Assembly (NCBI RefSeq): GCF_002929495.1
Contig: NZ_PJJJ01000034.1
Location: 62,001 to 126,000 of the forward strand
DNA: 64,000 nt
Reading direction: 5' to 3'
From: Cryobacterium sp. Y82
GTDB taxonomy: Bacteria > Actinomycetota > Actinomycetes > Actinomycetales > Microbacteriaceae
Shown piece after piece: positions 7,602 to 21,497 of the stretch. A program made the position numbers and the translations under genes. Numbering within the stretch: position 1 is the stretch's first letter; each line of letters opens with the position of its first letter. Under the pieces are notes generated by a model, which worked only from the letters and a program-made list of their open reading frames with translations, was not told the DNA's origin and made no database searches.

Positions 7602-8033
7602 CACGAACCGCGTTCGCGAAAGCGGGCAAATGGTTGCTTCACCCCGGCAATATCACAGGGGTGACAGGAACTGTTTGTCCGCTTTTTCGTTGTCAAAATA
7701 TATCCTCGTTCCACCCCCTAGTTTGGGGGCATGCAGTAACCAACGGGGGGCATACATGAGCTTGAGTCATCTCTAATATTTTGAATATAGATAATGAATG
7801 AATTTCATTATCTTGCTTCTCAATGACCACTAGACACGATGGCGACCAAAAGTTGGCTGCACGCACCGTCTTCGTCTGCGTGTAATTCGAGTAATCCAAC
7901 GGCGCACACATCACCGGTTTGATATCCGTGAGATTGTGCGCTCGCCCTGGCAACCCCATCTCGCTACCTCGAGTGCTACCTCCCGCGAACGGTGTTCACG
8001 GTCCCTCGAGCGCGCCCAGTTCGAGGGATTCAC
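7602..8033. other. Gene-free region before the glycan cluster; weak terminator and GC-box inverted repeat
   Basis: No credible coding sequence in 432 bases. A hairpin TCACCCC (7639-7645) with GGGGTGA (7658-7664) may end aceB transcription. Bases 7680-7900 are markedly AT-richer than the surroundings, consistent with a promoter region. An inverted repeat CCCCC-TAGTTT-GGGGG lies at 7714-7729, and GGGGGCAT is repeated at 7725 and about 30 bases later. These are candidate operators for the following operon. Confidence 0.45.
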
Positions 8034-8849
8034 ATGTGGCTCAATGAAACCGTGTCCGTAGTGCTCATGACCTATGCAGAAAAGGACAGCATCCGCGATG
8101 TAATTCAGGAATTCTTCGACACCGGTGTTGTCGACGAAGTGATCGTGGTGAACAACAACGCCGAAGAGGGCACGTCGGAGCAGGTCGCGATGACCGAGGC
8201 GCGGGAAGTGTTGGAACCGCGGCAGGGCTACGGATATGCGACTAGACGAGGGCTTCAGGAAGCAGTGGGCGACTTGGTCGTCATTGCAGAGCCCGATGGA
8301 ACATTTTCCGGTCGGGATATTTTTAAGCTCCTCTCGTATAGCCGCGACTGCGATGCGGTCTTCGGTACGCGGACCTATCAAACACTGATCTGGGAGGGCG
8401 CCAACATGGGGCACTTTCTGCGCATTGGAAACTGGGCCGTTGCCAGCTATGTCAGATTGATCTTTGGTAGTGAATACCTCAGTGACGTTGGTTGCAGCTA
8501 CCGGCTGCTGCGACACCACGTCATTGACCAGATCCTCGACAAGCTTGAGATCGGCGGCAGCCAACTCGGCCCTGAGCTCATGCTGCGAACCCTCCTGACG
8601 GGCGCACGCGTCGTCGAGGTCCCAGTGAACTATCTGCCACGCGTTGGCGTCTCATCTGTTACCGGAGATTCTCGAAAGGCCGTGATTCTGGGTCTGCAGA
8701 TGATCGGCCTGATTACCATGATCCGCATGCGCACGCTCGGCAAAACCTGCCGTCCGGCGCGAATGTCGCACCGGGAGCTGCCCGCCCGGAGCCTCATCTC
8801 CCCGTACCCGATCCGAGAGATTGCCGATGTTTCCGAGATCGTGAATTGA
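8034..8849 (+). CDS. Glycosyltransferase family 2
   Basis: A 271-residue GT-A fold glycosyltransferase of the dolichol-phosphate-sugar synthase type. It shows SVVLMTYAEKDS at the start of the nucleotide-binding fold, EVIVVNNNAEEGT, and EPDGTFSGRDIFKLL, where the D in PDG takes the DxD position, followed by a GCSYRLLR segment. No membrane helix is obvious. Such enzymes move a sugar from a nucleotide donor to a lipid carrier or membrane acceptor. ATG 8034 is preferred to GTG 7992 because GAGGG lies 6 bases upstream. It begins a tightly packed operon that runs to 14568. Confidence 0.82.
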   Translation: MWLNETVSVVLMTYAEKDSIRDVIQEFFDTGVVDEVIVVNNNAEEGTSEQVAMTEAREVLEPRQGYGYATRRGLQEAVGDLVVIAEPDGTFSGRDIFKLLSYSRDCDAVFGTRTYQTLIWEGANMGHFLRIGNWAVASYVRLIFGSEYLSDVGCSYRLLRHHVIDQILDKLEIGGSQLGPELMLRTLLTGARVVEVPVNYLPRVGVSSVTGDSRKAVILGLQMIGLITMIRMRTLGKTCRPARMSHRELPARSLISPYPIREIADVSEIVN

Positions 8850-8853
8850 TCAC

Positions 8854-10089
8854 GTGGGTATCGTCGAATCCACGCAGCGAGCGGCGGGCACCGCCATTCG
8901 CTACGGAACATACCTGACGCTGAGCGGTGCAGCGAGTGTCGTGCTGCTGATCTACATGGTCGTGCCCGCGCATCTCTTGGGCCGGTCGGAGTTCGGCCTA
9001 TTCTCATCGCTTTTTAGCTTGGTCGTTTTTCTCGGCGCCGTTTTCACGGCCGCGCAAACGTACGTGGCGGGCATCATTGCCTCCCAGCAGCACAGTGCAG
9101 CCGCCGATCTTCGACCATTGGTTTCAAGGATTGTGCTGTGGTGTGCGGTTCTGGCTGTCGGCTGGACGTTTTCTGCTCCCCTGGTGGCGCACTGGTTGAG
9201 GGCATCGATCCTCAGCGTCGCAATCGTGGGGGTCATCGCGGTCGCAACGTTGGCGTGGGCTGCGCTGCTGGGGGTGCTTCAGGGCGGCGGGCGATTCGTC
9301 GCGTTGGGGGCGGTCAATCTCGCCCAGGCTGCCCTTCGAATGGCGGCACTGGTCCTGACCATCGGGACAGGCGACATCAATCTCGTGCTGGGGGCGACCG
9401 CCGTTTCCATGGTTCCGGCGATCGTGTTAGTCGCAGTCGTCGTGCGTTTGGGGTCCCCCCGGCAGTCCGGGCAGGGGGCGTCCCGTCCCTCGGTCGCGCT
9501 GGGGAGTATTCTGCCGATGTTGATCGTGGGCCTTGTTGTCGGGTTTCCGGGCGTCGGGGATCTCATCATCATCCGGGCCGTCCACGATGCTGAGACAGCT
9601 GGAGATTTCGCAGTCGTCGCTTTGGTCGGGCGCGTACTCATATTCTTGGCGATCGTCGTGAACACCGTCCTGTTTCCGCTCTTCGTCTCGGAGCGCGACT
9701 CACTGCGGGGCACACGAACGCTGCTCGTTGCCACGGGGGTCGTGTCAGTCATCCTCGCTGTGCCGCTCGGTCTGATCCTCCTCCAGCCGGCGACGATCGT
9801 GTCACTGGCAGCCTTGCCTTCGACTGCGGCGGCTAAGCTCCTTCCGGCTTACGCCGTGGCGTCGTACCTCTTTGCCGTTGGATCTCTCGGCTGCTATTTT
9901 CAACTCGCCAGGGGAAACCGAACTTACCTTTTCGGGGCGCTGCTTCCGTTTATCGGACTCTTGATGGGGTTCTGCGCCTTCGTCACGGAGCTTGCCCAAT
10001 TGATGTTGTGCCTAAGTGGAGCTGCACTGCTCTTAGTCGTGATCAACATCGTTGTACCCGTGCGAGCGGCTCACGAGAGGTGCCACTGA
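8854..10089 (+). CDS. Polysaccharide flippase-like polytopic membrane protein
   Basis: A 411-residue protein made almost entirely of hydrophobic helices, about 12 by eye. Its opening (GTYLTLSGAASVVLLIYMVVPAHLLGRSEFGLFSSL) resembles the Wzx/MATE-like polysaccharide exporters. It would flip lipid-linked glycan intermediates across the membrane. It starts with GTG at 8854, five bases after the GT2 gene, and its stop overlaps the next start by one base (TGATG at 10087-10091). Family assignment rests on hydropathy and context; no substrate can be named. Confidence 0.7.
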   Translation: MGIVESTQRAAGTAIRYGTYLTLSGAASVVLLIYMVVPAHLLGRSEFGLFSSLFSLVVFLGAVFTAAQTYVAGIIASQQHSAAADLRPLVSRIVLWCAVLAVGWTFSAPLVAHWLRASILSVAIVGVIAVATLAWAALLGVLQGGGRFVALGAVNLAQAALRMAALVLTIGTGDINLVLGATAVSMVPAIVLVAVVVRLGSPRQSGQGASRPSVALGSILPMLIVGLVVGFPGVGDLIIIRAVHDAETAGDFAVVALVGRVLIFLAIVVNTVLFPLFVSERDSLRGTRTLLVATGVVSVILAVPLGLILLQPATIVSLAALPSTAAAKLLPAYAVASYLFAVGSLGCYFQLARGNRTYLFGALLPFIGLLMGFCAFVTELAQLMLCLSGAALLLVVINIVVPVRAAHERCH

Positions 10090-12926
10090 TGTTCAGAAGC
10101 ACAGGCCGTCGCGCGCAGCGGAATATCCATTCCTGGGTGCTCGCTCTTGTCGCGTCGTCAATGCTGGCCCTTATCGTAATACCGGCCTCTACGTGGACAG
10201 CTCCGCGCAACGACCTGGAAGTGTCCGGCTTCGATGCTGTGACGATGTACGCAGATTCGGCCGCCGGCGACGGGGGTCCAGGTGCTGTTGAGATCACGCC
10301 TTCCAAGGCGACGCTCACTGCACTCCAAGGCTCGGACACCCTCCTTCATTTGACCACAACGCCGCTGTCCTATCAGGCATCCTTTACCGTCAAGGTGATC
10401 AGAGCAGATGCCGGTACGTCGCCCATTACCGTGGCCATCTCGTCACCATTCCTGGGAGATGCTGTGCGTTTGTCACTTGGTCCGGAACCGACACGGTCCG
10501 TGTCACTTGAGACGATCACGGACGGTCTCTTGACCCAGAGTTCCGTCCTCGGCACCTATCAGGTTGGACAGGTCTACGACGCGACCGTGCGCCTGAATCG
10601 CGACAAGAAGATTGTCGATCTCGCCCTCGCGTCACGGCCGGGAACGACACGAGTCGCCGCCGTACTGCTGTCGACATCCGCGGCCAACTATGAATCTCAT
10701 ATCATCACCACAGAGCCCGTCAGCGTGCAAGCCGGTCAGCAGTATGTGTACTCCGCCGACGTGCTTCCCGCTATTGAGGGGCTCGCGGGGCTGGGCTTGG
10801 AATGGCTTGACCAGAGTGGAAGCCGAATCGTCGTCAGCAGTGATTGGTCGGCGACGGGTGTCGCTTCTGATCAGTGGTCTGGACGTCAGTTGGAAGCAGT
10901 CGCGCCGCCCGGCGCCGTTTCGGTGCGCCCCGAGCTTGCTGTCGCGGGATCGGCCAGCGTCAGCATTGCCAATGTCTCGCTGCGCTCGGTCGAGCAGCCT
11001 GCTGATAATCTGCTCTCCCACTTCGATTTTGCCACCGGGTTGAGCGGATGGCGCCGCAGCGAGGGAAGCGCACCACTGGAGGTGCGGGCCTACCCGGTGA
11101 GCGCACTTCGGGGAACCGTGGATTCTGCAGAGTTCCCGGAGCTTTTCAAAGCGCTCAGGATGGCCTTGACCGTATCCGCGAGCGCCGGTGAGGGGGTCTC
11201 CCAGATCGCCCTGGGCGACTACGAATTCGTTGTCCCGCACCAACGGTGGATGGCCGTCAAGGTGCACGATGCGCGCCTGACCGCACTCCTGATCACCTTG
11301 GGGGCGGTTGGGGCAGCGCTGCTCGGTCTGCTGGCGGTAAGGTATCTGCGTTCCGACCGCGGCCGTGCTGGCTGGCGGCGAGTCACCCGTCCGCGCACCC
11401 TCCGACTGACACGTACCACAGGACTGGTCCTCGGTAGTGTTGCAATTTACACGATTCTGTCCCTCTGGCTTGCGCATGCCGGAAGCCTGAATGCCGACAT
11501 TATCGGGGCACGCGTCTGGGCCTACGTTGCCGGTACCTCGGGATTGGACTCGCTCTATTTTCTGCCCAATATTTCGAGCGCGGAAGCCGGCCAATGGCAG
11601 GGGCTTGCGTTGCAGGAAGCGGGATTCCCGTACGGCCCGGTGATGGCGTACATTTTTGGCGCTCTCGGTATGGTCTACTCCTTCGGCATTCATCAGCCAG
11701 CGTTAGGTCAGCCCGATGCGATCACGATCGATTTTCTGGTGCGAATGGCAAACGGTGTCTTTGGCCTCATCGATGCGCTGCTCATAGCTCGAATCGTCTC
11801 GGCAATTGGGTTGGGATGTCGACGGTCCCTCGTTATTGGCGGCATCTTTTTGATCGCTCCCGCTCTTGCTTTTGCTAACTCGGTGTGGGGCACAACGCAG
11901 AGTATGAGCCTGGTTTTTATCCTCGCCGCCATCCTCTTCGTTCAGCTCAAGTTACCGACTCTGGCCTGGTCGCTGCTGTTCTGCTCCATGATGACCCGCC
12001 CTCAAAATCTCATCGTTGCCGCCATCATCGCGCTCGTTTTGCTCCGGACGACCCCGTGGGCGGTGACGGTGCGGTCCCTGTCAGTGGGGATCATGGCGGT
12101 CTTCCTCGCCATCCTGCCGCTGTCGCTCCTCATTTCCCCGACCCTTCCCGTCGACGTGACGATGAATGCCCTATTTATGCATGTAGGGTCGGGTAACGAT
12201 TCGTGGACTTTGCCTGTGTCGTGGGGCGCTTTTGGCCCCTGGCCCCTGGTTACGGCGATCATCGCCGGGGTGGGGGGCACGGAAAGTATTCTCTTTCCAG
12301 CGACCACACCCCTGGTCGGAACATTCACCTATTACGAGGTCGGCACAGTCGTCTTTCTCGGCTTCGTGGTCGTGCTCGCCCTCGTCGTACTCCACCGCGG
12401 CGCGGACATGATGAAAGACGGGCGGTTCATCCTCGCCGGAACTCTTGCGGTGCTTGCCCTACTTCAACTGAAAACCGGCGCACCCACTTACCACATGCTG
12501 CTGCCTACCGCGCTGACATTCTTGCTCGTGCGGGCGCTCCCTCGTCGCACCTACTTGTTCGTCACCGTGACGCTCAGCGCGACAACGTTCGTTTCGATGT
12601 ATGGCATGGGCGCGTATTGGCTGGCGAGTCACCCCGGCTGGGGTGTTGGGGTCTATGATCCGACGTTCTGGGGAAGCACGCTTTTCAGTGCGGCAGTCCA
12701 AAGTGCACCCGTTGTGCTGATTGGATGCCTGGGGAACGTTGCAGTCTTCCTGATGCTTCTCGTCAATCTGTTACGGCGGGCCGTGCCAGACGCTGCGGGG
12801 AGCGCCCCTGGACGCCGAGCGGCAGGGCTTCGGCGCCACCCGCGATTTCGCACACCTCTGCCGAGCGAACCCGTTCAGCTGCCCCTGCCAGCCCGAGACA
12901 CTAAAGAGAATCTGGTGAAATTATGA
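10089..12926 (+). CDS. Large GT-C-like membrane protein with extracytoplasmic N-terminal domain
   Basis: A 945-residue protein. An N-terminal membrane anchor (about residues 17-35) is followed by roughly 370 residues predicted outside the cell, rich in beta-strand-like sequence (VSVQAGQQYVYSADVLP, then a second copy-like NLLSHFDFATGLSGW), resembling carbohydrate-binding jelly-roll modules. About a dozen membrane helices follow from residue 400. The multi-pass part, with GFPYGPVMAYIFG and SVWGTTQSMSLVF, looks like a GT-C glycosyltransferase that uses lipid-phosphate sugars, but no catalytic residue can be assigned confidently. ATG 10089 overlaps the previous stop. The call is inference from topology and operon context. 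Confidence 0.62.
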   Translation: MFRSTGRRAQRNIHSWVLALVASSMLALIVIPASTWTAPRNDLEVSGFDAVTMYADSAAGDGGPGAVEITPSKATLTALQGSDTLLHLTTTPLSYQASFTVKVIRADAGTSPITVAISSPFLGDAVRLSLGPEPTRSVSLETITDGLLTQSSVLGTYQVGQVYDATVRLNRDKKIVDLALASRPGTTRVAAVLLSTSAANYESHIITTEPVSVQAGQQYVYSADVLPAIEGLAGLGLEWLDQSGSRIVVSSDWSATGVASDQWSGRQLEAVAPPGAVSVRPELAVAGSASVSIANVSLRSVEQPADNLLSHFDFATGLSGWRRSEGSAPLEVRAYPVSALRGTVDSAEFPELFKALRMALTVSASAGEGVSQIALGDYEFVVPHQRWMAVKVHDARLTALLITLGAVGAALLGLLAVRYLRSDRGRAGWRRVTRPRTLRLTRTTGLVLGSVAIYTILSLWLAHAGSLNADIIGARVWAYVAGTSGLDSLYFLPNISSAEAGQWQGLALQEAGFPYGPVMAYIFGALGMVYSFGIHQPALGQPDAITIDFLVRMANGVFGLIDALLIARIVSAIGLGCRRSLVIGGIFLIAPALAFANSVWGTTQSMSLVFILAAILFVQLKLPTLAWSLLFCSMMTRPQNLIVAAIIALVLLRTTPWAVTVRSLSVGIMAVFLAILPLSLLISPTLPVDVTMNALFMHVGSGNDSWTLPVSWGAFGPWPLVTAIIAGVGGTESILFPATTPLVGTFTYYEVGTVVFLGFVVVLALVVLHRGADMMKDGRFILAGTLAVLALLQLKTGAPTYHMLLPTALTFLLVRALPRRTYLFVTVTLSATTFVSMYGMGAYWLASHPGWGVGVYDPTFWGSTLFSAAVQSAPVVLIGCLGNVAVFLMLLVNLLRRAVPDAAGSAPGRRAAGLRRHPRFRTPLPSEPVQLPLPARDTKENLVKL

Positions 12927-14092
12927 CTCCCCCCTCCCGTGCACTCTTTCTAGCCGGACGCGATGCACTTCACCCGGGCGCTGCGGGCGGTGACCTTCAG
13001 GCCTGGCAGTGGGCGACCCACTTGGCCGCTGCGGGTTGGCACGTGGAATTCGTCTGCCAATCCGGTGACGGTCTCAGTGAACGTCAGACAGCGTCAGGCG
13101 TCAGTATTCTCCGACTGGGATCTGGGCCGTTGCTAGCGATTCGTGCAGCGCGTCACTATCGGCGTCACAAGAGCGAGATCGACATCATCTACGAAGATCC
13201 CATTGGAGCTGGCCGCACACCGTTTCTGTCACCGCTGTACGCGCGAGTGGGAGTGATCGCTGTTTGGCACCAAGTTTCGGCTGATCTGCTCGCGACCCTG
13301 CACGGCTCTGGCGTAGCGGCTGTCCTCAGCTTCCTAGAACGGCTCGTCGCGAGATTTTACCGTCGAGCGTTCTTGTGGGCTCCATCGTGGGAACGCGCCG
13401 ACGAAATCTCGCGGGACCTCAGGATTCCCAGAGATCGAATCACGGTAATACCGCCCACCCTCGCGACCGGCATTCAAATCAGGGCGACGACCGTCGAGGC
13501 CGGCCCGCAGATTCTCTGCCTGGGGGTCATGCGCTCCTACAAACACTTCGACCACGTCATCCGGACGATGCCGGCAATTCTGGCCGTCATTCCGTCCGCT
13601 CGACTCGTGATCGCAGGGCGGCGCGGTTCCGACGCTTTCGAAAGCACTCTGCTCGGAGTCAGCACGGCCCTAGGGCTTGACGAGGTCGTGGACTTTCGCT
13701 TCGATCTCACGGATGATGACCGACAGGCTTTGATTCGCCAATCGGCCCTGCTGGTGATTCCATCCCTCCTGGAAGGCTTCGGCATCGTCTCTATTGAGGC
13801 CAACGCCGAGGGAGTGCCCGTGGTCGCCAGCAGCGGGGTGCCCGTCGCCGCAGTGGAGCATGACCTGAATGGGTTGCGTTATCCGTTCGGCGATCTGGCA
13901 GCGTTGACCCATCATATTCAGCGCATCCTGCAGGAGCCCGCTCTGCGCCGCCGACTCGGGCAAACCGGACTGGCGCACGCACGTGCACTCACCACGGCCG
14001 GGATTGCTCCGCGATTCGATCGGCTTGTGGCACGGGCTCAGGCGCAGTCACGGCCGACGGGCAGTCGGCGTGGCTTGGTGGCAAAGTCATGA
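12923..14092 (+). CDS. Glycosyltransferase family 4 (GT-B fold)
   Basis: A 389-residue GT-B glycosyltransferase. The N-terminal half has the acceptor-domain motif GGDLQAWQWATHLAAAGWHVEFV. The C-terminal half has ILCLGVMRSYKHFDHVIRTMP, LVIAGRRGSDAF and the GT4 signature PSLLEGFGIVSIEANAEGVPV, with the conserved ExFGxxxxE glutamates that bind the nucleotide-sugar. ATG 12923 overlaps the stop of the previous gene (ATGA), so the two are probably translationally coupled. It likely adds one sugar to the cytoplasmic face of the growing glycan or glycolipid. Confidence 0.85.
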   Translation: MTPPSRALFLAGRDALHPGAAGGDLQAWQWATHLAAAGWHVEFVCQSGDGLSERQTASGVSILRLGSGPLLAIRAARHYRRHKSEIDIIYEDPIGAGRTPFLSPLYARVGVIAVWHQVSADLLATLHGSGVAAVLSFLERLVARFYRRAFLWAPSWERADEISRDLRIPRDRITVIPPTLATGIQIRATTVEAGPQILCLGVMRSYKHFDHVIRTMPAILAVIPSARLVIAGRRGSDAFESTLLGVSTALGLDEVVDFRFDLTDDDRQALIRQSALLVIPSLLEGFGIVSIEANAEGVPVVASSGVPVAAVEHDLNGLRYPFGDLAALTHHIQRILQEPALRRRLGQTGLAHARALTTAGIAPRFDRLVARAQAQSRPTGSRRGLVAKS

Positions 14093-14568
14093 CGCCCAGC
14101 AGTAGCCGAGGGCGACGTCTCCGCTACGCCGCGGCGGCATTCCTGGGGTGCGGCATCGTGGTCCTCATTCTCATTGTCGTCATGGCTGCGCCGCCACGGT
14201 CGCCCGACCAGACTGTCGCGGCAAGCCCCGTGGTTGCACTCACCAGTCAACCGCGCGACGTCGTGTTCGAAGGAGTCCCGGTAGTGGCCTATATCGGTGC
14301 GTACTCGGGCCAGCGTGCGGTCGTTCACCTGCAAGGCGCGGGCGCGGACGCCGAGGCGGCGTGGGCGTCTGTCGTTTCCGCCCAGCTCTCCGTCAGCGAG
14401 GGCGATATCCCCGCAGAGATTTCCGTTACACGATCCGCCGATGGCTTGTCCGCTCTGACCCTGGAATTCACAAGTAGCCAGCCGATCGGAAAGGCTGCGT
14501 TGCTGGTGACGACGTCGAACCGTGAGTATCGCTTCGACTGCCGATGGAGTACAATCCCGGGTGGCTGA
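14089..14568 (+). CDS. Membrane-anchored exported protein, function unknown
   Basis: A 159-residue protein. A basic start (SSRGRRLRY) precedes one membrane helix (about residues 14-34, AAAAFLGCGIVVLILIVVMAA); the rest is soluble and predicted outside. I do not recognise the family. It ends with FDCRWSTIPGG and has no lipobox or sorting signal. It overlaps the GT4 gene by four bases (ATGA) and is the last gene of the glycan operon, so it may help assemble or anchor the product. Confidence 0.65.
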   Translation: MTPSSSRGRRLRYAAAAFLGCGIVVLILIVVMAAPPRSPDQTVAASPVVALTSQPRDVVFEGVPVVAYIGAYSGQRAVVHLQGAGADAEAAWASVVSAQLSVSEGDIPAEISVTRSADGLSALTLEFTSSQPIGKAALLVTTSNREYRFDCRWSTIPGG

Positions 14569-14586
14569 GCCGGACTCGGCCTCATT

Positions 14587-14602
14587 GCCGCATCAGTGCG
14601 GC
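14587..14602. terminator. Short hairpin between convergent operon end and photolyase
   Basis: GCCGCA at 14587-14592, loop TCAG, and TGCGGC at 14597-14602. It overlaps the photolyase stop codon and could stop transcription from both directions. There is no clear T-run. Confidence 0.4.
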
Positions 14603-16029
14603 GTGCCGTTCTTTACCCGGTCGTAGGCCGCGAGGGCCGCTCGGCGCGTTTCGCCGAGGTCCACGAGAGGTTCTGGATAGGCATCCGTGCCGTACTCGGG
14701 CACGTATTCCCGGATGTATTGCTGGTGCGGGTCGAACTTGGCCGCTTGCAGTTCGGGATTGAAAATGCGAAAGTACGGCGCGGCATCTGCTCCGGAACCG
14801 GCGACCCACTGCCAACCGAAGGGGTTGCTCGCAGCGTCGGCATCGACCAGGGTGTCCCAGAACCAGCGCTCTCCCTCGCGCCAGTCGACCAACATATTCT
14901 TGATCAGGAATGATGCGGCGACCATGCGTACCCGATTATGCATACTCCCAGTGCGCCACAGTTCACGCATGCCCGCATCGACGAGCGCGAAGCCGGTGCG
15001 CCCCTGTTTCCAAGCGGCGAAGGCACGTTGGTCGACCGGCGGCCACGGGAAAGCATCGAAAGCGGGGCGCAGGTTTGTCGTCGCGAGCTCGGGGGCGTGA
15101 AAGAGTACGTGGTAGGCGAATTCGCGCCAGCCGAGCTCTGTGAGAAACCGGGTCGCGCTCGTCAGCGCCGGGCCGGAGAGCCCGCGCTGGGCCTGCTGCG
15201 TGGCGGCCCAAACCTGATGCGGGCTGATTTCGCCCCAGCGCAGGTAGGGCGACAGGCGCGACGTGGCGTTCTGGGCCGGTTCGTCACGTTCGGCGGCGTA
15301 GCGGGGAAGCGCCTCGGCGAGAAAGTGCTCGAGCATTTGTTGAGCGGATTCTTCGCCCGGCGTCCACGCGGCGCGCAGCCCAGCCGCCCAGTCCGGCGCA
15401 CTCGGCTCGAGGCTCCAGTCGTTCAGGTTGTCGGAGGCGAGGTTGTCTGTCGCGTTTTCGCCCGTCGAGCCGGCAACGCTGGTGGGCGTCGGGTACGGCG
15501 CGCGCGGCGGCGGGCCTGCGGTGCAGGAACGCCAGAACGGCGTGAATACCGAGTAAGAGCCGCCCTGACCGGTCTGAACCGTCCACGGTTCGAACAGGAG
15601 CGAACCGGCGAAACTGTGGGTGTCTACGCCGCGCCCGCGCAGCTCGGCCTTGATTGCGGTGTCGATTGTGCGTTCGGCCTCGCCATAGCGGCGATTCCAG
15701 AAGACCGCCGCAGCATCTGTCTCGTCCACGATCTGGGCCATGATTGCGGCCGCAGCGCCCCGGCGCAGGATGAGTCGCCCACCGAGCTTTTCGAGCGTCG
15801 CAGCCAGAGACCGCAGGCTTTGGTGCAGCCACCAGCGTGCCGCACCGCCGAGCGGACGCACGCCGGGAGATTCGTCGTCGAACACGTACACGGCCACGAT
15901 TGGTCGTTGACGGGCCAGGGCGGCATGCAGTGCCGGGTGGTCAGCGACCCGCAAATCGTCGCGGAACCAGACGATGACGGGGCCGGCGTGCTCGTTGGAG
16001 TGGGGGGTGTTGGCGGGGGGTGCAGTCAT
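14593..16029 (-). CDS. phr: Deoxyribodipyrimidine photolyase (class I CPD type)
   Basis: A 478-residue photolyase that uses light and FADH to split UV-induced pyrimidine dimers. The N-terminal antenna domain begins VIVWFRDDLRVADHPALH. The FAD-binding C-terminal half contains TRFLTELGWREFAYHVLFH, GRTGFALVDAGMRELWRTGSMHNRVRMVAASF and the hallmark WFWDTLVDADAASNPFGWQW. Length fits class I enzymes. ATG 16029 is chosen because GAGGAG lies 5 bases upstream and the antenna fold starts directly afterwards; the open frame upstream to 16284 is not conserved-looking and enters an AT-rich promoter region. Transcribed away from the SipW locus. Confidence 0.94.
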   Translation of the reverse strand: MTAPPANTPHSNEHAGPVIVWFRDDLRVADHPALHAALARQRPIVAVYVFDDESPGVRPLGGAARWWLHQSLRSLAATLEKLGGRLILRRGAAAAIMAQIVDETDAAAVFWNRRYGEAERTIDTAIKAELRGRGVDTHSFAGSLLFEPWTVQTGQGGSYSVFTPFWRSCTAGPPPRAPYPTPTSVAGSTGENATDNLASDNLNDWSLEPSAPDWAAGLRAAWTPGEESAQQMLEHFLAEALPRYAAERDEPAQNATSRLSPYLRWGEISPHQVWAATQQAQRGLSGPALTSATRFLTELGWREFAYHVLFHAPELATTNLRPAFDAFPWPPVDQRAFAAWKQGRTGFALVDAGMRELWRTGSMHNRVRMVAASFLIKNMLVDWREGERWFWDTLVDADAASNPFGWQWVAGSGADAAPYFRIFNPELQAAKFDPHQQYIREYVPEYGTDAYPEPLVDLGETRRAALAAYDRVKNGTPH

Positions 16030-16504
16030 GGCGTCTCCTCGTGAGAACTCCAGTGTGGACCCTCCCGGCGAGTAGACCAATTCGGAGGTAGAACGCTCTG
16101 TTGCGGCTGATCTCGTACGGCTCACCGAGGATGGTACACGGTCAAAACATCGGTTTTTCCAGGCAAAAACAATGTAAAGCACTACAAAACCTTCTGAATA
16201 CTTCGCAAAAACTCTGGATTTGCCCAAAACACTGATTTCCCATTCTGGGGGTTTAGATGGGACAGACTTATCTGTCTGTCCCATCTAGTGTGTGAATCGC
16301 GGATGGAACTACAGCCGAGAAAATCACTGTCGAGCTGGAGCAATTCATGGCTCGATACCCAGAGTCGTGGCGGCCAGCCGCGATACCGGCGTGCTTACCC
16401 CATGCCTGCCACGTGGCGGGTTCTTTCACCGTTGCTCCACGCCTGCCAAATTCTGGCCTGCGATCACCCGAAGTTTTCAGACCAGTATTCGGAAGGTTTC
16501 ACTT
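16030..16504. promoter_or_regulatory. Divergent control region of photolyase and SipW locus
   Basis: A 475-base gene-free region. Bases 16130-16290 are AT-rich for this genome. A perfect inverted repeat, TAGATGGGACAGAC at 16254-16267 and GTCTGTCCCATCTA at 16274-16287 with a 6-base centre, is the main landmark. It lies about 225 bp from one start and 218 bp from the other and may be an operator. A GGAAGG ribosome binding site at 16490-16495 precedes the next gene. No riboswitch that I know was recognised. Confidence 0.55.
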
Positions 16505-17101
16505 ATGAACAAGCTCACTAAAGGGGCGATTGCCGGCGCTGCCGGTCTTACCCTCCTGCTCGGCGGCGGCACCACTTTCGCGTTGTGGAACTCCTCGGCA
16601 GGGGTTTCCGGCGGTACGATTTCGGCCGGTACCCTCGAGATCGCGTCTGCAGGGAAGGGAAGCTGGCACGCAAACGGTGCCGTTGAGAGTATCGACCTTA
16701 AGGCCTTCAGGGCCGTTCCCAGCGACGTGCTCGTCTACACGGAGACGATGAACATCGCGGCAGCTGGCAACAACCTCACGGCTACCTTGGCGATGTCAGC
16801 GGCGTCGATCTTACCGGCTGACGACACCGATTCGGCCGACCAGGCACTCGCGCGCTACCTGAAAGCAAACGCCGTTCTGACCGCTGCTGGTAATGGAATC
16901 TCGCCCGGCGGTGCACCGTACACGATCACCGGCGCCGCCGGAACTCAGACCGTCGATGTCACGGTCACGATTGCGTTCCCAAGCTTCGTGCCTGACAGCG
17001 CGAACAGAAGCTCTGCGGATGAGCAGGCCTCCATGGGCGGAGCGGTTGACCTCGCTGGACTGAGCATCACCCTCGATCAGAAAGCCCGGCCCGCGAGCTA
17101 G
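16505..17101 (+). CDS. Exported protein with alternate-type (SipW-dependent) signal peptide
   Basis: A 198-residue secreted protein. Its N-terminus (MNKLTKGAIAGAAGLTLLLG then GGTTFALWNSS) matches the actinobacterial alternate-type signal peptide recognised by SipW-like signal peptidases, the class that includes TasA and camelysin of bacilli. The mature part is small, low in charge and beta-rich, as expected of a fibre or surface-coat subunit. The ATG at 16505 has a ribosome binding site 9 bases upstream and gives a signal peptide of proper length; an in-frame upstream start would bury it. It is the first gene of a locus ending in its probable signal peptidase at 19822. Confidence 0.8.
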   Translation: MNKLTKGAIAGAAGLTLLLGGGTTFALWNSSAGVSGGTISAGTLEIASAGKGSWHANGAVESIDLKAFRAVPSDVLVYTETMNIAAAGNNLTATLAMSAASILPADDTDSADQALARYLKANAVLTAAGNGISPGGAPYTITGAAGTQTVDVTVTIAFPSFVPDSANRSSADEQASMGGAVDLAGLSITLDQKARPAS

Positions 17102-17117
17102 CCGTCCCGGTACGGAG

Positions 17118-17142
17118 GTGCCCGCCACCCGACGGCGGGCAC
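17118..17142 (+). terminator. Perfect 9-bp hairpin after the first SipW substrate gene
   Basis: GTGCCCGCC (17118-17126), loop ACCCGAC, GGCGGGCAC (17134-17142). It starts 16 bases after the stop of the TasA-like gene. With no T-run it more likely reduces downstream transcription or protects the upstream mRNA, which would make the first gene the most abundant product of the operon. Confidence 0.6.
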
Positions 17143-17729
17143 CCCGAAACAGCCAGCAGGCAGTATCCTCTCGATTCGCGAAAGCCGGTGTTCTTTTGAA
17201 AGCGTTTCTACTTGCGAGCGCGGCGATTCTGGGTGCTACCCTGCTGGCTACGGCCGCTGTTGGCGAAACCTATACCCTTCTTAACTCGAGCGTCTCGGCC
17301 AACCAAGCGGTCACCATCCAGGCCGGAACGGCAGCCCTCAGCATCACGTCGCCCCTCGTGCTGTCGGACGCCCCGCTGTATCCGGGAGCGAAAAACGTCG
17401 GCACGGTCGAAGTGCGCAATGACGGCACGGTGTCGCTCGCGCTTCGGCTCTTTGGCCTGACACCACCCACCGCTCAGACCGCATTGTCCGATGGCCTGGT
17501 TGTTGGGGTTCGAACAGTTTCGGCGGCGAGCGAGTGCACGTCGAGCCTGACACCGACTATTACCGGCACATTCCTTTCCGCGCCGGTGGCCGAGCTTGAT
17601 ACGACCCTCGCCCCGGGAGCTACAGCGATGCTCTGCGTCTCGGTGCTGCTTTCAGCGGATGCCCCGAGCGTCAGCCAATCCCAGACTGCGACGAGTTTTG
17701 GGCTCCTGATTGATGGACGACAGGTCTAG
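17118..17729 (+). CDS. Second exported protein with SipW-type signal peptide
   Basis: Up to 203 residues. The hydrophobic stretch KAFLLASAAILGATLLATAAV is followed by GETYTLLNSS, which parallels FALWNSS of the preceding protein, so both are probably cut by the same peptidase. The mature part is beta-rich with only two cysteines. The GTG at 17118 lies inside a 9-bp hairpin and has no spaced ribosome binding site, so translation may really begin at the TTG at 17196, giving a shorter signal peptide starting LKAFLLAS. Function unknown; context suggests a minor surface-structure component. Confidence 0.65.
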   Translation: MPATRRRAPRNSQQAVSSRFAKAGVLLKAFLLASAAILGATLLATAAVGETYTLLNSSVSANQAVTIQAGTAALSITSPLVLSDAPLYPGAKNVGTVEVRNDGTVSLALRLFGLTPPTAQTALSDGLVVGVRTVSAASECTSSLTPTITGTFLSAPVAELDTTLAPGATAMLCVSVLLSADAPSVSQSQTATSFGLLIDGRQV

Positions 17730-17732
17730 CCC

Positions 17733-19091
17733 GTGAAATGGCACCGTCACTTCCCTCGTGCCCTGCGGCTGAGAACCCCGCGCCCGCCTGTTCGCCGGCC
17801 TGAATTCCTGCCTCGCTGGCCTGCTGCCCGGTCTGCGGTAACGATCGCGAGCGCTGTCTTGTTGACCCTCGGGGGCTCCGGGGTTGCCCAAGCTGTCTGG
17901 ACCGCCTCGGCGGTCAACCCCACCGCATCCGCGAGGTCTGGCGCCGTGACTATCAGCCAGACGGGCTTTGCGGACCTCGCGACGACTTACACGTCCACAG
18001 TGCTCACCGCCACGAAGTTGGTTACGGTGACCAATGGGACCGTTCCCGCCCGTTACGACCTGGTGCTCGGCGCGGCTTCCTCGGCGCCCGCCGCGTTTGC
18101 TGGTGACATCACCGTGCGCACCTGGCTGATCGCCGCCCCCGGGGTCTGCGCGACGACGCCCCCGACCGGCACGCCGAGCAGGAGCTGGGCGACTGGAGTC
18201 ACCCTCAGCGGTGACCTGGCAGCAGCGGCCACGGTGCGTTACTGCGTGCAGACCTCGATCACTAGTGCCGCCGCCGGGAACACGCCGGGTACCACGATGA
18301 CGGCGCGAATGGATCTGCGGGCGCATGCCGGCAACTGGACCTCACCGGTGACGACCGTAACAACCGTGCAAAAAGTGGCTAACACCGCGCCACGGGCGTT
18401 GGTGGCCGTCAAGAAGACGCACAGCGCCATCTCGATGAGCTGGAGTGCTCCCGACGACAAAACCGTGACGCGCTATCAGGTGTATCGCGGCACCGACAAG
18501 ATCTCTGAGGTACAGAGCGCCACCACCTTTACCGACACCGACCGGGTGGCTAGCACTCAATATGAATACACGGTCCGTGCCGTCGACGGCAGCAACAACG
18601 TTCTGGCAGCATCAAACGTGCTCGCCGTGACGACGAATAAGCAGTCGCCAGCCCCTGGTGTGTGGTTCCACGTCGTCACCGCCGACGGATCCTGTGTCGA
18701 AGCAGCGGCTCCGCAAGTGGAAGGCAGAGTGCTGGCGACGACGCAGTGCTCGACGGCACCTTCATCGAGCTTCCAATTCGTTGCGGAGCCGGACGGCACC
18801 TACAAAATCGCCGCGAACACGACCGCGAGGGTGTGGGATTCCCGGGCCAAGAAGCAGGGCTCTTCCGACGTAACACTGAGCGTGGAGGATGACGGCCCAA
18901 AGAAATTGGAGCAACGATTCTCTCTCACCAGCGGTGACGACTCGATCGGGGGGTTCCAGATTCGCAGCGTGCAGGAAAATAGACAGTGCATGCAATCGGG
19001 CGCCACGGGTGCCGCGCTCACTATGCAGGCCTGCGGCACGGCACCCGTCCCGAAAAACCAGCAATTCACCCTGGTCGAGGTGGCACCGTGA
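17733..19091 (+). CDS. Exported protein with SipW-type signal, FN3 and ricin-type lectin domains
   Basis: A 452-residue protein starting with GTG three bases after the previous stop. A long basic N-terminal region leads to a membrane segment (about residues 34-55, ending GVAQAVWTAS). Residues 60-220 resemble the beta-rich mature parts of the two upstream proteins. A fibronectin type III domain follows (about 225-300, with ISMSWSAPDDKTVTRYQVYRG), then a ricin-B-like or carbohydrate-binding beta-trefoil region (about 305-452) with paired cysteines. It probably sits on the cell surface and binds glycan or another protein. Confidence 0.72.
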   Translation: MKWHRHFPRALRLRTPRPPVRRPEFLPRWPAARSAVTIASAVLLTLGGSGVAQAVWTASAVNPTASARSGAVTISQTGFADLATTYTSTVLTATKLVTVTNGTVPARYDLVLGAASSAPAAFAGDITVRTWLIAAPGVCATTPPTGTPSRSWATGVTLSGDLAAAATVRYCVQTSITSAAAGNTPGTTMTARMDLRAHAGNWTSPVTTVTTVQKVANTAPRALVAVKKTHSAISMSWSAPDDKTVTRYQVYRGTDKISEVQSATTFTDTDRVASTQYEYTVRAVDGSNNVLAASNVLAVTTNKQSPAPGVWFHVVTADGSCVEAAAPQVEGRVLATTQCSTAPSSSFQFVAEPDGTYKIAANTTARVWDSRAKKQGSSDVTLSVEDDGPKKLEQRFSLTSGDDSIGGFQIRSVQENRQCMQSGATGAALTMQACGTAPVPKNQQFTLVEVAP

Positions 19092-19825
19092 GCGCGTTCC
19101 CGATCAGCGCCCGCCTGGCAGCGATCTGCGGGGCAGTGCTGCTCCTGCTCGGGAGTGCCGGGGCCGAATCGCCGGCGCTGGCAGCGCCGAATGACGAGGT
19201 CAGCCGTGAGGTAGTAACCGATGTTCGGGTCAGTAGCGACGGCATCTATTTTGCCAGCAAACTGCCCGCCGGGCTGTTCGACTCCTTGGGCACGTTGATT
19301 CCGAATGGTTCGATGCGGTCGACCCTGTGGATTCAAAACCCGAGCGATGGGCCTGCGAACGTGCGGCTGAGCCTGCGCGAGCCGGGCGGGGGATCCGCTG
19401 ATCTGACGGAGTACCTTACCCTGGGTGTCCAAGTGGGCACGTCCCAAATTGTGACGACCGTTCCGCTAGCGGGCGGTGCGGACTGCGCGGTACTCGCGCC
19501 AGCCCAGCCACTCGCCGCGGGAGCGACCCTGCGCGTTGTGCTCACGATCGAAATGATGAACGTGACCGGGCTGACCGCCCAAAATGCACGCACCGACCTG
19601 GGAATTCTGGTCGCCCTGCGCGATGGAGAGGCCGGACCGTTTGGGCCTTCGGCGTGCGACGACGAAGGCGTATTGATCCCGGCAGTGGCAGGGGTGGCTG
19701 CTCCGCTTCGGCCGGCTGCCCTGTCGCGCACCGGTGTCGACCTGCCCATCGCCGCGCTCGTCGGCGCAGGGCTGATGCTCGGCATCGGCGGGCTTCTTGT
19801 CACGCGGCGTCGGCGAGAGCAATGA
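19088..19825 (+). CDS. Exported surface protein with C-terminal sorting-signal-like tail
   Basis: A 245-residue protein, GTG start overlapping the preceding stop (GTGA). A Sec signal peptide (ARLAAICGAVLLLLGSAGA, cut near ALAAP) opens it. The C-terminus has LSRTGVDLP, a hydrophobic helix of about 20 residues and RRRREQ. That layout is a sortase-type wall-sorting signal in which LSRTG takes the place of LPxTG. The body is beta-rich. No sortase gene is in the window, so anchoring by a distant sortase, or simple membrane retention, is inferred. It could be the base or anchor of the surface structure built by the upstream proteins. Confidence 0.68.
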   Translation: MSAFPISARLAAICGAVLLLLGSAGAESPALAAPNDEVSREVVTDVRVSSDGIYFASKLPAGLFDSLGTLIPNGSMRSTLWIQNPSDGPANVRLSLREPGGGSADLTEYLTLGVQVGTSQIVTTVPLAGGADCAVLAPAQPLAAGATLRVVLTIEMMNVTGLTAQNARTDLGILVALRDGEAGPFGPSACDDEGVLIPAVAGVAAPLRPAALSRTGVDLPIAALVGAGLMLGIGGLLVTRRRREQ

Positions 19826-20478
19826 CCGGGCAGCAGACACTCGCGTCTGTCAATCGACCTCAGGAATCTGCGGTCGCTTCGCGTGCTCCCCTCGAGAGCA
19901 GCATCTGGAGTTACCTCGGGTTCGCACTCAGCGCGGTCTTGCTCCTGCTCGTTGTCGGGCTCGGGGTGGTGCTTGTGGTGATCCCCAGGGCGACCGGTGC
20001 GACCCCGCTTACCGTGCTGACCAGCTCCATGGAGCCGGGGCTTCCGCCGGGCACTCTCGTCATCGTGCGCCCGGTCGCCGCCGAGGCACTGCGCCTCGGC
20101 GACGTCGTCACCTATCAAATGGAATCGGGCGACGCCAGGGTCGTCACGCACCGCATCATCTCGATTGTGTCGAGCTCAGACGGATCGCGTTCGTTTATCG
20201 TGCAGGGTGACAACAACAGCGCGCCCGACGATGATCCGGTGCTGGCCGAGCAGATTCAAGGCCGGCTCTGGTATGCGGTGCCCTATGTCGGCTATGTGAA
20301 CAACGTGGTCAACGGGGCAAGCCGGGCGTGGATCATCCCGGTGGTTACCACCGCGGTTTTCGGGTATGCCGGATTCATGGTCGCCGGAGGCGTGCTTGAC
20401 CACAGGCGAACCCGCACGCGGGCAGCGGATGCCGGCGAGCCGGGTGCCGCGGATGCGACGCGGGTAGGGCGCGGCTGA
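19822..20478 (+). CDS. Signal peptidase I, SipW/archaeal-like type
   Basis: A 218-residue S26-family peptidase. A membrane helix (about residues 32-55) is followed by LTSSMEPGLPPGTLVIV, with the nucleophile serine in SSMEPG, then GDVVTYQ and VVTHRI. The second catalytic position is histidine (THR) instead of the lysine of ordinary bacterial signal peptidases, which is diagnostic for the SipW/ER class. A second helix lies near the C-terminus. ATGA overlap with the preceding gene shows co-expression with its likely substrates. In bacilli SipW processes TasA and TapA; here three substrate-like proteins precede it. Confidence 0.88.
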   Translation: MTGQQTLASVNRPQESAVASRAPLESSIWSYLGFALSAVLLLLVVGLGVVLVVIPRATGATPLTVLTSSMEPGLPPGTLVIVRPVAAEALRLGDVVTYQMESGDARVVTHRIISIVSSSDGSRSFIVQGDNNSAPDDDPVLAEQIQGRLWYAVPYVGYVNNVVNGASRAWIIPVVTTAVFGYAGFMVAGGVLDHRRTRTRAADAGEPGAADATRVGRG

Positions 20479-20510
20479 GCGCTCGTGATGGCCGGCCAAC
20501 CGCTGGACTA

Positions 20511-21497
20511 TTAGGACACGCGCAGCACGATCTTGCCGCGGGTGTGACCCTCCTCGAGCAGCCGATGGGCCGCGGCGCCGTCGGCGAGTTCGAACACCGA
20601 GTCGACGTGCACCCGCACGGTTCCCGCGTCGAGCAGCGCCGAGATTTCGTCGAGCGCTCGCGCGTCGGGGGACACCTTGAAACCGGTCGCGCGTCGGCCC
20701 GCTGCTGCGGCATCCGCTGCCACGGTCGGCCAACTGCCGGTTGGGGCGTTCACGAGCAGGCCGCCGGGGCGGAGCACGGCGAGGGAACGGGTGCCGGTGT
20801 TGTCGTGCACGTTGCCGATGAGGTCGATGACCGAGTCGAGGTCGTGGACCATATCTTCGAAGCGCGTGGTGGTGTAGTCGATGACCTCGTCGGCGCCGAG
20901 TTCGCGCAGGAAGTCGAGGTTGCGGGTTGACCCGGTTGCGGTCACGTGCGCGCCCAGGACGCGGGCGAACTGCACCGCGAAGTGACCGACGCCGCCACTG
21001 CCGGCGTGCACGAGCATGCGCTGCCCGGGGCCAGCCTCGGCCAACTTGATCATTCCCCACGCGGTCAATGCTGCGAGGGGAACTGCAGCCGCCTCGGCGT
21101 GGCTGAGCCGGGCGGGCTTTCGGGTGACGCTCATGCTCGACACCGAGACGTACTCGGCGAAGCTGCCGCCGACGCGCGGCACCCGGCCCATGCCGTAGAC
21201 GGCATCGCCCGGTTGGAGTGGCGCAGCCTCGAAGGCAGCGCGCACGACCACGCCGCTGAAGTCATTGCCGAGAATAGCCGGGAAACTCTCGATCGCGGCC
21301 GCGACGCCCTTGCCCGACCGGGTCTTGGCGTCGATCGGATTGAGGCCGGCCGCGATGACCTTGACCAGAACCTCGTCGACAATCTGGCGTGGCAGCATCC
21401 GATCGGTCAGGTGCAACACCTCTGGGGCGCCGGTCTCGTCGATGACCAGGGCGCGCATGGTCTGCGGCAGTTCGAATTCAGGAGCCATGCTCCTCAT
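20511..21497 (-). CDS. Zinc-type alcohol dehydrogenase / quinone oxidoreductase family protein
   Basis: A medium-chain dehydrogenase/reductase of about 328 residues. It has the GroES-like N-terminal domain (IDAKTRSGKG, ILGNDFSGVV) and the NADPH-binding Rossmann motif AGSGGVGHFAVQFARVLGAHV. The catalytic zinc ligands of true alcohol dehydrogenases are missing, which places it with NADPH:quinone oxidoreductases. Substrate unknown. Start: ATG 21497 has a GGGGGA stretch 7 bases upstream. ATG 21488 has a GAGGAG that is too close to use, and ATG 21458 would also preserve the fold. Converges with the signal peptidase gene. Confidence 0.85.
   Translation of the reverse strand: MRSMAPEFELPQTMRALVIDETGAPEVLHLTDRMLPRQIVDEVLVKVIAAGLNPIDAKTRSGKGVAAAIESFPAILGNDFSGVVVRAAFEAAPLQPGDAVYGMGRVPRVGGSFAEYVSVSSMSVTRKPARLSHAEAAAVPLAALTAWGMIKLAEAGPGQRMLVHAGSGGVGHFAVQFARVLGAHVTATGSTRNLDFLRELGADEVIDYTTTRFEDMVHDLDSVIDLIGNVHDNTGTRSLAVLRPGGLLVNAPTGSWPTVAADAAAAGRRATGFKVSPDARALDEISALLDAGTVRVHVDSVFELADGAAAHRLLEEGHTRGKIVLRVS

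Follow-up and report, generated by a model that had tools for sequence, protein, structure and literature searches.

A five-gene SipW-type operon of Cryobacterium sp. Y82 that may encode a wall-anchored, TasA-like surface fibre

What does a locus build that keeps a SipW-type signal peptidase beside three putative substrates and a protein with a sorting tail? We address this question for a stretch of 64,000 nucleotides from Cryobacterium sp. Y82 (contig NZ_PJJJ01000034.1, positions 62,001 to 126,000), hereafter the window, in which five genes, P0001 to P0005, form one tight operon in the same direction at 16505-20478 (+). All five open reading frames (ORFs) named in a preliminary description of the window are real, and their positions are confirmed. 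Genes 1 and 2 are separated by 94 bases (with gene 2 starting at TTG 17196) and genes 2 and 3 by 3 bases, while 4-base overlaps join genes 3 and 4 and genes 4 and 5. We judge the chance to be somewhat better than even that this operon makes a TasA-like surface fibre, anchored to the cell wall and carrying a lectin at its tip.

The peptidase and the first substrate are identified by family models. P0005 scores 88.7 bits against TIGR02228, the model for signal peptidase I of the archaeal/SipW type (cut-off 51.85), and is the only match above this cut-off in the genome, which was scanned as 37 contigs of 3.69 Mb in total. It falls below the Bacillus SipW equivalog NF046067 (84.9 versus 190 bits). 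The Ser/His arrangement of SipW, which the preliminary description had ascribed to it, is well founded, with Ser69, His110 and D130 invariant in all 17 aligned sequences. P0001 passes both TIGR04089 (exp_by_SipW_III; 136.7 bits, cut-off 60, residues 1-192) and the SipW-signal model TIGR04088 (24.5 bits, cut-off 19), and no other protein of the genome matches TIGR04088 at E ≤ 1. NCBIfam already has names for the signal, the P0001 family and the peptidase.

Relatives were collected by a scan with the P0005 alignment, which yielded 80 named loci, the best 80 of 201. Families were assigned within each locus by top model and score thresholds, some loci being cut by contig ends. P0001 relatives occur in 77 of these 80 loci, P0002 relatives in 72, P0003 relatives in 67 and P0004 relatives in 48; all five families are found in 36. 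Cleavage sites were read from motifs, and homologues were chosen by profile score. In P0001 the cut is expected after A26 (FA↓LWNSS, the arrow marking the cut), and the surrounding residues are nearly invariant in its family (n = 84): Thr or Ser at P3, Ala at P1 and Trp at P2′ in 84/84, and Asn at P3′ in 79/84. The P0002 family (n = 56) has Ala at P1 in 55 members, Leu (28), Trp (27) or Phe (1) at P2′, and Asn at P3′ in 48. Among 68 P0003 relatives, Ala occupies P1 in 66 and Trp P2′ in 65, and P3′ is mostly Thr (37) or Ser (18). The shared pattern pointed out earlier at the end of the hydrophobic segment (FALWNSS, TYTLLNSS, QAVWTAS) is thus present as described and recurs in homologues. The accompanying claim of three alternate-signal proteins holds for the motifs, which are of SipW type on P0001 to P0003, but not for the signal model: TIGR04088 is matched by P0001 alone, with no match to P0002 or P0003 at E ≤ 10, and recognises 6 of 56 P0002-family members at E ≤ 0.01.

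The distance from the cleavage site to a conserved Gly of the first strand is also nearly fixed, at 15 residues in 74 of 84 P0001 relatives and 14-15 residues in all 68 P0003 relatives. The P0001 motif, T-[F/Y]-A↓x-W-N, matches T-W-A↓A-F-N of TasA one for one by position. The cited part of one report describes poor cleavage by E. coli LepB when P2′ is aromatic and notes that TasA has Phe at this place (Phe29; PMC10269814). In the structural accounts, as far as cited here, the TasA donor strand comprises residues 28-38, directly after the cut, with F29, I32 and F39 making hydrophobic contacts with the next subunits (PMC9674648) and Asn30 forming hydrogen bonds to following subunits (PMC10151520). 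By analogy, the W-N residues of P0001 may act as part of a donor strand. The monomer models have pLDDT below 50 for the first 10 mature residues of P0002 and the first 8 of P0001. P0004 relatives show AxA patterns, and in the stretches inspected the last AxA never has an aromatic P2′ residue; sites in this family were set by pattern alone, and the last AxA is plainly the wrong site in a few rows.

The assembly that we favour would proceed as follows. P0001 as the major subunit, P0002 as a minor one and the lectin-bearing P0003, probably the tip, would be exported via Sec and cut by P0005 just before W/L-N (W-T in P0003), which would release some 11 residues as an N-terminal strand. By donor-strand exchange, every such strand would complete the β-sandwich of the next subunit. 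P0004, with a related domain, an ordinary-looking signal and no W-N strand motif, would be fixed to the wall through LSRTG by a class E sortase and would accept the strand of the first subunit, forming the base. A hairpin after gene 1 would keep P0001 in excess.

Profile comparisons relate most of the exported proteins to one another. P0002 and the N-terminal domain of P0003 (P0003N) match over 163 columns (Prob 99, E 1.3e-18, signals included), and the P0002 family matches P0004 outside the signals (Prob 96, E 2.7e-9). The match of P0003N to P0004 is weaker (Prob 73), that of P0001 to P0003N is confined to the signal region, and an unrelated control pair, P0001 and the peptidase, reached Prob 6.7. 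This relationship of P0004 to P0002 and P0003 gives the locus the appearance of a group of fibre subunits with an anchor. The models of the mature proteins are mostly β, predicted with pLDDT 85.8 for P0002 and 86.4 for P0001, and both are β-sandwiches. A Foldseek search with P0002 placed the Pyrobaculum bundling pilus 7ueg first (E 7.5e-4, the only one of 1429 matches at E ≤ 0.001; TM-score 0.50 and 12% identity to mature P0002), followed at E 2.7e-3 by two PapG pilin-domain entries and the TasA fibre 8aur at rank 4. With P0001, 8aur came first, as a weak match (E 0.012, TM 0.37). In VIA-align, P0002 gave Z 7.3 with 7ueg (rmsd 4.3, 124 residues aligned) and Z 7.1 with 8aur (rmsd 3.3, 121 aligned). 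A sequence search of the PDB with P0001 returned chance-like matches only.

The anchor is indicated by the C-terminus of P0004, which ends in LSRTG, a hydrophobic helix and a basic tail, as had been described. It narrowly passes TIGR01167 (17.6 bits, cut-off 15.9) and stays below NF058582 (22.8 versus 27) and Pfam Gram_pos_anchor PF00746 (13.7 versus 20). P0004 is the genome's best LPXTG_anchor match. TIGR01167 proved unsuitable as a discriminating test, exceeding its cut-off in 9 of 14 control genomes, and the putative sorting signal therefore rests on the motif-helix-basic layout and its recurrence. Relatives in Salinibacterium and Frigoribacterium keep the helix and basic residues without LxxTG and may be anchored in the membrane instead. 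In most of the loci that contain P0004 its gene precedes that of the peptidase; in some Cryobacterium loci it follows. Thirty-seven P0004-family sequences were aligned; in one locus (L059:10568-11376) a frameshift or an error of sequencing may have broken the relative into two overlapping ORFs.

A sortase, for which a search had been proposed, was found as a single PF04203 match (E ≤ 0.001) in the genome, on another contig. Together with the sorting tail it might suggest a covalent pilus, in which a pilus sortase links the subunits and P0004 is the base pilin. We hold this to be very improbable: the sole sortase is of class E by NF033747 (226.5 versus 160 bits) and misses the class C cut-off (44.2 versus 160), and P0004 alone of the five operon proteins matches a sorting-signal model. 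LxxTG does occur in the last 60 residues of 20/72 P0002 relatives (against 2/85 for P0001 and 1/67 for P0003), but in the alignment those of P0002 resemble strand ends, for example LTVTGTQ, and these counts were set aside. The co-occurrence of a class E sortase was likewise set aside as evidence, being uninformative when 229 of 249 sampled genomes of the same taxonomic family have a match.

Several results weigh against the fibre, beginning with the fold, for which the evidence is weak. P0001 and P0002 are poorly related once signals are removed (Prob 94 with signals, 65 without), and P0001 has no Foldseek match at E 0.001. In VIA-align, the P0002 scores are tied with those of CanA (7.5), a sialidase (7.3) and FimA (6.5), P0001 reaches 8aur only at rank 17 (Z 4.9, rmsd 6.8, 147 aligned), and Z is below 8 in all rows, which may mean merely a common arrangement; several of the tied rows are pilus subunits. 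A PDB search with a mature-only P0002 profile listed sialidase entries first (E 0.005-0.018), then TasA (0.024, 0.028) and AbpX (0.036, 0.056), and PDB searches with P0003N and P0004 profiles gave neither TasA nor AbpX, only chance-like matches. The camelysin/TasA family PF12389 (at E ≤ 0.01) is matched by 39 of 56 full-length P0002 relatives (best 2.7e-8) but by 5 of 56 mature ones, on a par with other Ig-like families (4-6 members), and by 12 of 84 full-length P0001 relatives but none of the 65 mature sequences, a subset of the 84. Fifteen full-length P0002 relatives also match the NCBIfam TasA model and 13 of 56 the BsaA model (best E 1.4e-5). Camelysin membership from full-length scans was discarded, as the mature-only control indicates that these matches are driven mainly by the signal peptide.

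Other objections concern cleavage, assembly and anchoring. The conservation of W and N could be explained by peptidase preference alone. P0002 in this genome has Thr at P1 (17274-17276), the sole exception among 56 relatives. From its last AxA to SxDG, P0004 has 16 residues, which may include a strand of other sequence. Half of the P0004 family lacks the sorting motif, with LxxTG within the last 70 residues in 25 of 50 ORFs, and P0004 matches are found in only 48 of the 80 loci even when weak ones, such as those of Rhodococcus, are counted. Moreover, according to the cited part of PMC10151520, the SipW substrate TapA is believed not to polymerise past initiation.

A rival reading is an arrangement in which P0001 to P0003 are secreted or wall-associated Ig-like adhesins that do not polymerise, P0004 is anchored separately and W-N is nothing other than the P0005 site. 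Sortase-anchored and lectin modules are common in adhesins, and the tied VIA-align rows, together with mature P0002-family domains that match generic Ig-like families about as well as camelysin, fit such proteins. We nevertheless consider this arrangement doubtful: related domains are kept together with a dedicated peptidase, the N-terminal spacing is fixed in P0001 and P0003 relatives, the top Foldseek matches are fibre proteins, and fibres or polymers are formed by TasA and BsaA, themselves substrates of SipW, as described in the cited parts of PMC9674648 and PMC7395162. The name of the nearest Pfam family, camelysin metallo-endopeptidase, also brings to mind a secreted metalloprotease system with no structural role. 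This seems scarcely credible, since P0001 (12.5 bits) and P0002 (15.1 bits) miss the PF12389 gathering cut-off of 22.5 and since TasA, a structural fibre protein, is itself counted among the camelysins in the cited part of PMC10151520.

Returning to the TasA-like fibre, the mature domains are best described, from profiles and models, as predicted β-sandwiches near TasA and AbpX and not as proven members of either. The structure prediction and comparison with TasA and camelysin that had been suggested thus came out mixed, yielding β-sandwiches with fibre proteins at the top of Foldseek, but ties in VIA-align and few or no mature PF12389 matches. Likewise, the resemblance to TasA-TapA-SipW proposed at the outset extends to the motif and the dedicated peptidase, and less firmly to the fold, with VIA-align tied and the PF12389 cut-off missed.

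The proposed tip is P0003. Lectin and FN3 modules, attributed earlier to the locus as a whole, are confined to this protein in a Pfam scan of all five: FN3 scores 31.3 bits (cut-off 25) and RicinB_lectin_2 (PF14200) 27.1 bits (cut-off 25.6), and an RGI_lyase model is passed as well. The lectin-like region may bind sugar. In ten relatives scanned, part of the 67 P0003-family ORFs, the ricin-B model (E ≤ 0.01) was found in six, not always above cut-off, and went undetected in four. A constant N-terminal domain with a changing tail would be expected of a tip adhesin. A plasmid search with P0003 returned six records, which cover about one fifth to one third of the query around the FN3 part.

The lectin module and the nearness of a glycan operon in the window would favour the earlier suggestion of a coat that binds the polysaccharide of that operon (then placed at 8034-14568), an explanation we regard as unlikely. 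The flanking genes of the SipW locus are often kept (E ≤ 1e-10), one read as photolyase in 17 of 80 loci and one as quinone oxidoreductase in 25. Malate synthase and photolyase are both visible in 16 relatives, where 60 to 3899 bases separate them; in the window the gap is about 7 kb and holds the glycan operon (7601-14593). The five glycan-operon proteins gave no tblastn match (E ≤ 1e-10) in any of the 80 loci, including the 16 syntenic ones with both flanking genes, and the lectin module is itself undetected in 4 of the 10 P0003 relatives. As the SipW locus is kept without the glycan operon, a functional tie is unsupported, and the suggested link is not upheld. The glycan operon appears to be an insertion restricted to this strain or to a small number of strains.

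P0002 passes no model cut-off in the Pfam and NCBIfam scans, and its start needed separate attention. TTG 17196 is most likely the start, rather than 17118, because the frame is closed just upstream in L039 and this is the sole ATG, GTG or TTG before the signal helix; in three relatives read, GGTGATC directly precedes this TTG. By motif, cleavage is expected after T53 (long-form numbering). Given the Thr at P1, P0002 may be cut poorly or not at all in this strain.

The interval separating genes 1 and 2 contains a GC-rich hairpin. We searched the 120 nt after each gene for a perfect stem, allowing G-U pairs, with 11,903 windows from the same loci as controls. Stems of at least 12 bp follow 39 of 83 P0001-family genes, against 2.2% of control windows; the corresponding counts for families 2-5 are 3/72, 1/67, 1/37 and 2/83, many of these genes abutting the next gene. 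As ORFs were taken from stop to stop, two of the longest stems (L084, L088) may be part of coding sequence. The Y82 stem has 10 bp, a length reached by 8.9% of controls, and the claim for a hairpin here therefore rests on the family. The Y82 copy has no T run. Four close copies were aligned, that of L036 being imperfect, and stem sequences vary between genera. In an energy test of the 60 bases after 74 P0001-family genes the mean z was -1.3, with 29 below -2; several loci of Curtobacterium and Frigoribacterium had clearly positive values, and those of Rhodococcus were close to zero. The predicted hairpin is frequent in the family, not universal. An Rfam scan of 16000-20700 found nothing at gathering level. 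In C. perfringens, the cited part of PMC7395162 describes a predicted terminator with readthrough after bsaA in sipW-bsaA, and the simplest reading is that the hairpin here would similarly raise the product of the first gene.

Judged by its peptidase, the locus is common in the genus and family of the host. Among the matches listed, the closest named relatives of P0005 belong to Cryobacterium strains. P0005 relatives (E ≤ 1e-20) occur in 29 of 57 Cryobacterium genomes, which marks the locus as accessory, and in 161 of 249 sampled genomes of the same taxonomic family at E ≤ 0.001, a count that includes distant peptidases. In a sample of 100 genomes from the phylum, containing no other genome of the host's family, TIGR02228 (E ≤ 1e-12) was found in 30 and TIGR04089 (E ≤ 1e-8) in one, the host's own. 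By these matches the P0001 family does not seem to be phylum-wide, and the sample says no more than that.

A bolder proposal, which we offer tentatively, is that the locus encodes an actinobacterial fimbria needing neither chaperone nor usher, where each subunit's place would be decided by the signal peptidase that cuts it. P0001 and P0002, cut by the SipW-type enzyme, would gain a donor strand and polymerise, and P0003, cut likewise, would end in a lectin; P0004, cut by the ordinary peptidase, would lack this strand, only accept one and form the sortase-fixed base. The aromatic residue of the SipW site would then be conserved as the first plug of the donor strand. If the fibre is real, TasA-type fibres would extend to Actinobacteria as a modular wall-anchored organelle whose lectin part varies with lineage, a counterpart of the chaperone-usher fimbriae. 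The attachment of such a fibre to a Gram-positive wall, and the existence of a separate signal peptidase for it, would then have a concrete explanation. Among the open-access literature matches listed, none was recognised as treating an actinobacterial TasA-like or SipW operon, which does not prove that none exists, and none was seen to describe the hairpin, a fibre model for the locus or the kinship between the anchored protein and the substrates.

Table 1. Positions of the operon genes, their proposed elements and related ORFs in other loci; positions refer to the window unless a locus is named.
Feature	Position	Strand	Description and basis
P0001, 198 aa	16505..17101	+	SipW-type substrate, TIGR04089 family; proposed major fibre subunit
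First 11 residues of mature P0001 (LWNSSAGVSGG)	16583..16615	+	proposed donor strand
GC-rich hairpin, 10-bp perfect stem, genes 1-2	17117..17143	+	stem search of P0001-family genes
P0002, 177 aa	17196..17729	+	second SipW-type subunit, conserved Cys pair; ORF open from GTG 17118
P0003, 452 aa	17733..19091	+	SipW-type subunit; FN3 module and ricin-B-like lectin module; proposed as tip adhesin
FN3 module of P0003	18387..18599	+	Pfam PF00041, residues 219-289
Ricin-B-like β-trefoil region of P0003	18672..19088	+	PF14200, two stretches, best residues 314-372
P0004, 245 aa	19088..19825	+	signal of ordinary AxA appearance, domain related to P0002, sorting tail at the C-terminus; proposed as base anchored to the wall
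P0004 tail: LSRTG, hydrophobic helix, RRRREQ	19721..19822	+	TIGR01167, layout
P0005, 218 aa	19822..20478	+	SipW/ER-type signal peptidase, Ser69 and His110
S26-like gap ORFs	L038:5006-5680, L059:5063-5662, L076:5081-5629, L079:4791-5660		P0005 model

Further SipW-type genes were seen near related loci. Cryobacterium strains Y57 (L035:1059-3253) and Y29 (L036:2566-4733) carry a second cluster of two P0001-like genes and a peptidase, directly upstream of the photolyase gene, in the gap occupied by the glycan operon in the window; the end of such a cluster is visible in Y50 (L039:1-986). In other Cryobacterium loci, the malate synthase-photolyase gap contains an S26-like ORF scoring 115-120 bits against the P0005 model. 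In eight Rhodococcus loci (L101, L103, L106-L108, L110, L111 and L113) the SipW gene is followed by another, larger ORF whose P0005-like domain scores 124-144 bits, and additional P0002-like ORFs lie between the two.

Comparison with known systems places the locus nearest to fibres dependent on SipW. With TasA-TapA-SipW of B. subtilis it shares a dedicated Ser/His peptidase, more than one substrate and, by the models, a β-sandwich subunit, and with TasA the motif T-aromatic-A↓x-aromatic-N and a similar length from cleavage site to first strand. It differs in gene order, in the failure of P0001 and P0002 to reach PF12389 and of P0005 to reach NF046067, and in having an extra lectin-bearing subunit, the sortase-type tail protein P0004 and no TapA match. 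The sipW-bsaA operon of C. perfringens (TIGR04090) combines SipW-dependent export of a polymer-forming protein with further exported proteins and has a predicted terminator with readthrough after the gene for its main subunit, where the present locus has a hairpin; unlike P0004, BsaA is described in the cited part of PMC7395162 as lacking an LPXTG-like motif, with no role found for the neighbouring sortase. TasA-CalY-CapP of B. cereus likewise comprises several SipW-linked fibre proteins and a wall-associated assembly helper, but is sortase-independent according to its authors, and a lectin module is not mentioned in the cited part of their report (PMC13082335).

The bundling pili of Pyrobaculum (7ueg) may resemble the locus in fold, as the best Foldseek match of mature P0002 and through the AbpX chains recovered in the PDB profile search; unlike the system described here they are archaeal, and we know of no lectin or wall anchor in them. 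The NCBIfam models TIGR04089, TIGR04088 and TIGR02228, to which P0001 and P0005 belong, name a signal and a peptidase and give no fold or set of partners. Set beside these systems, the operon of Cryobacterium sp. Y82 may represent a TasA-like fibre provided with its own anchor and lectin.

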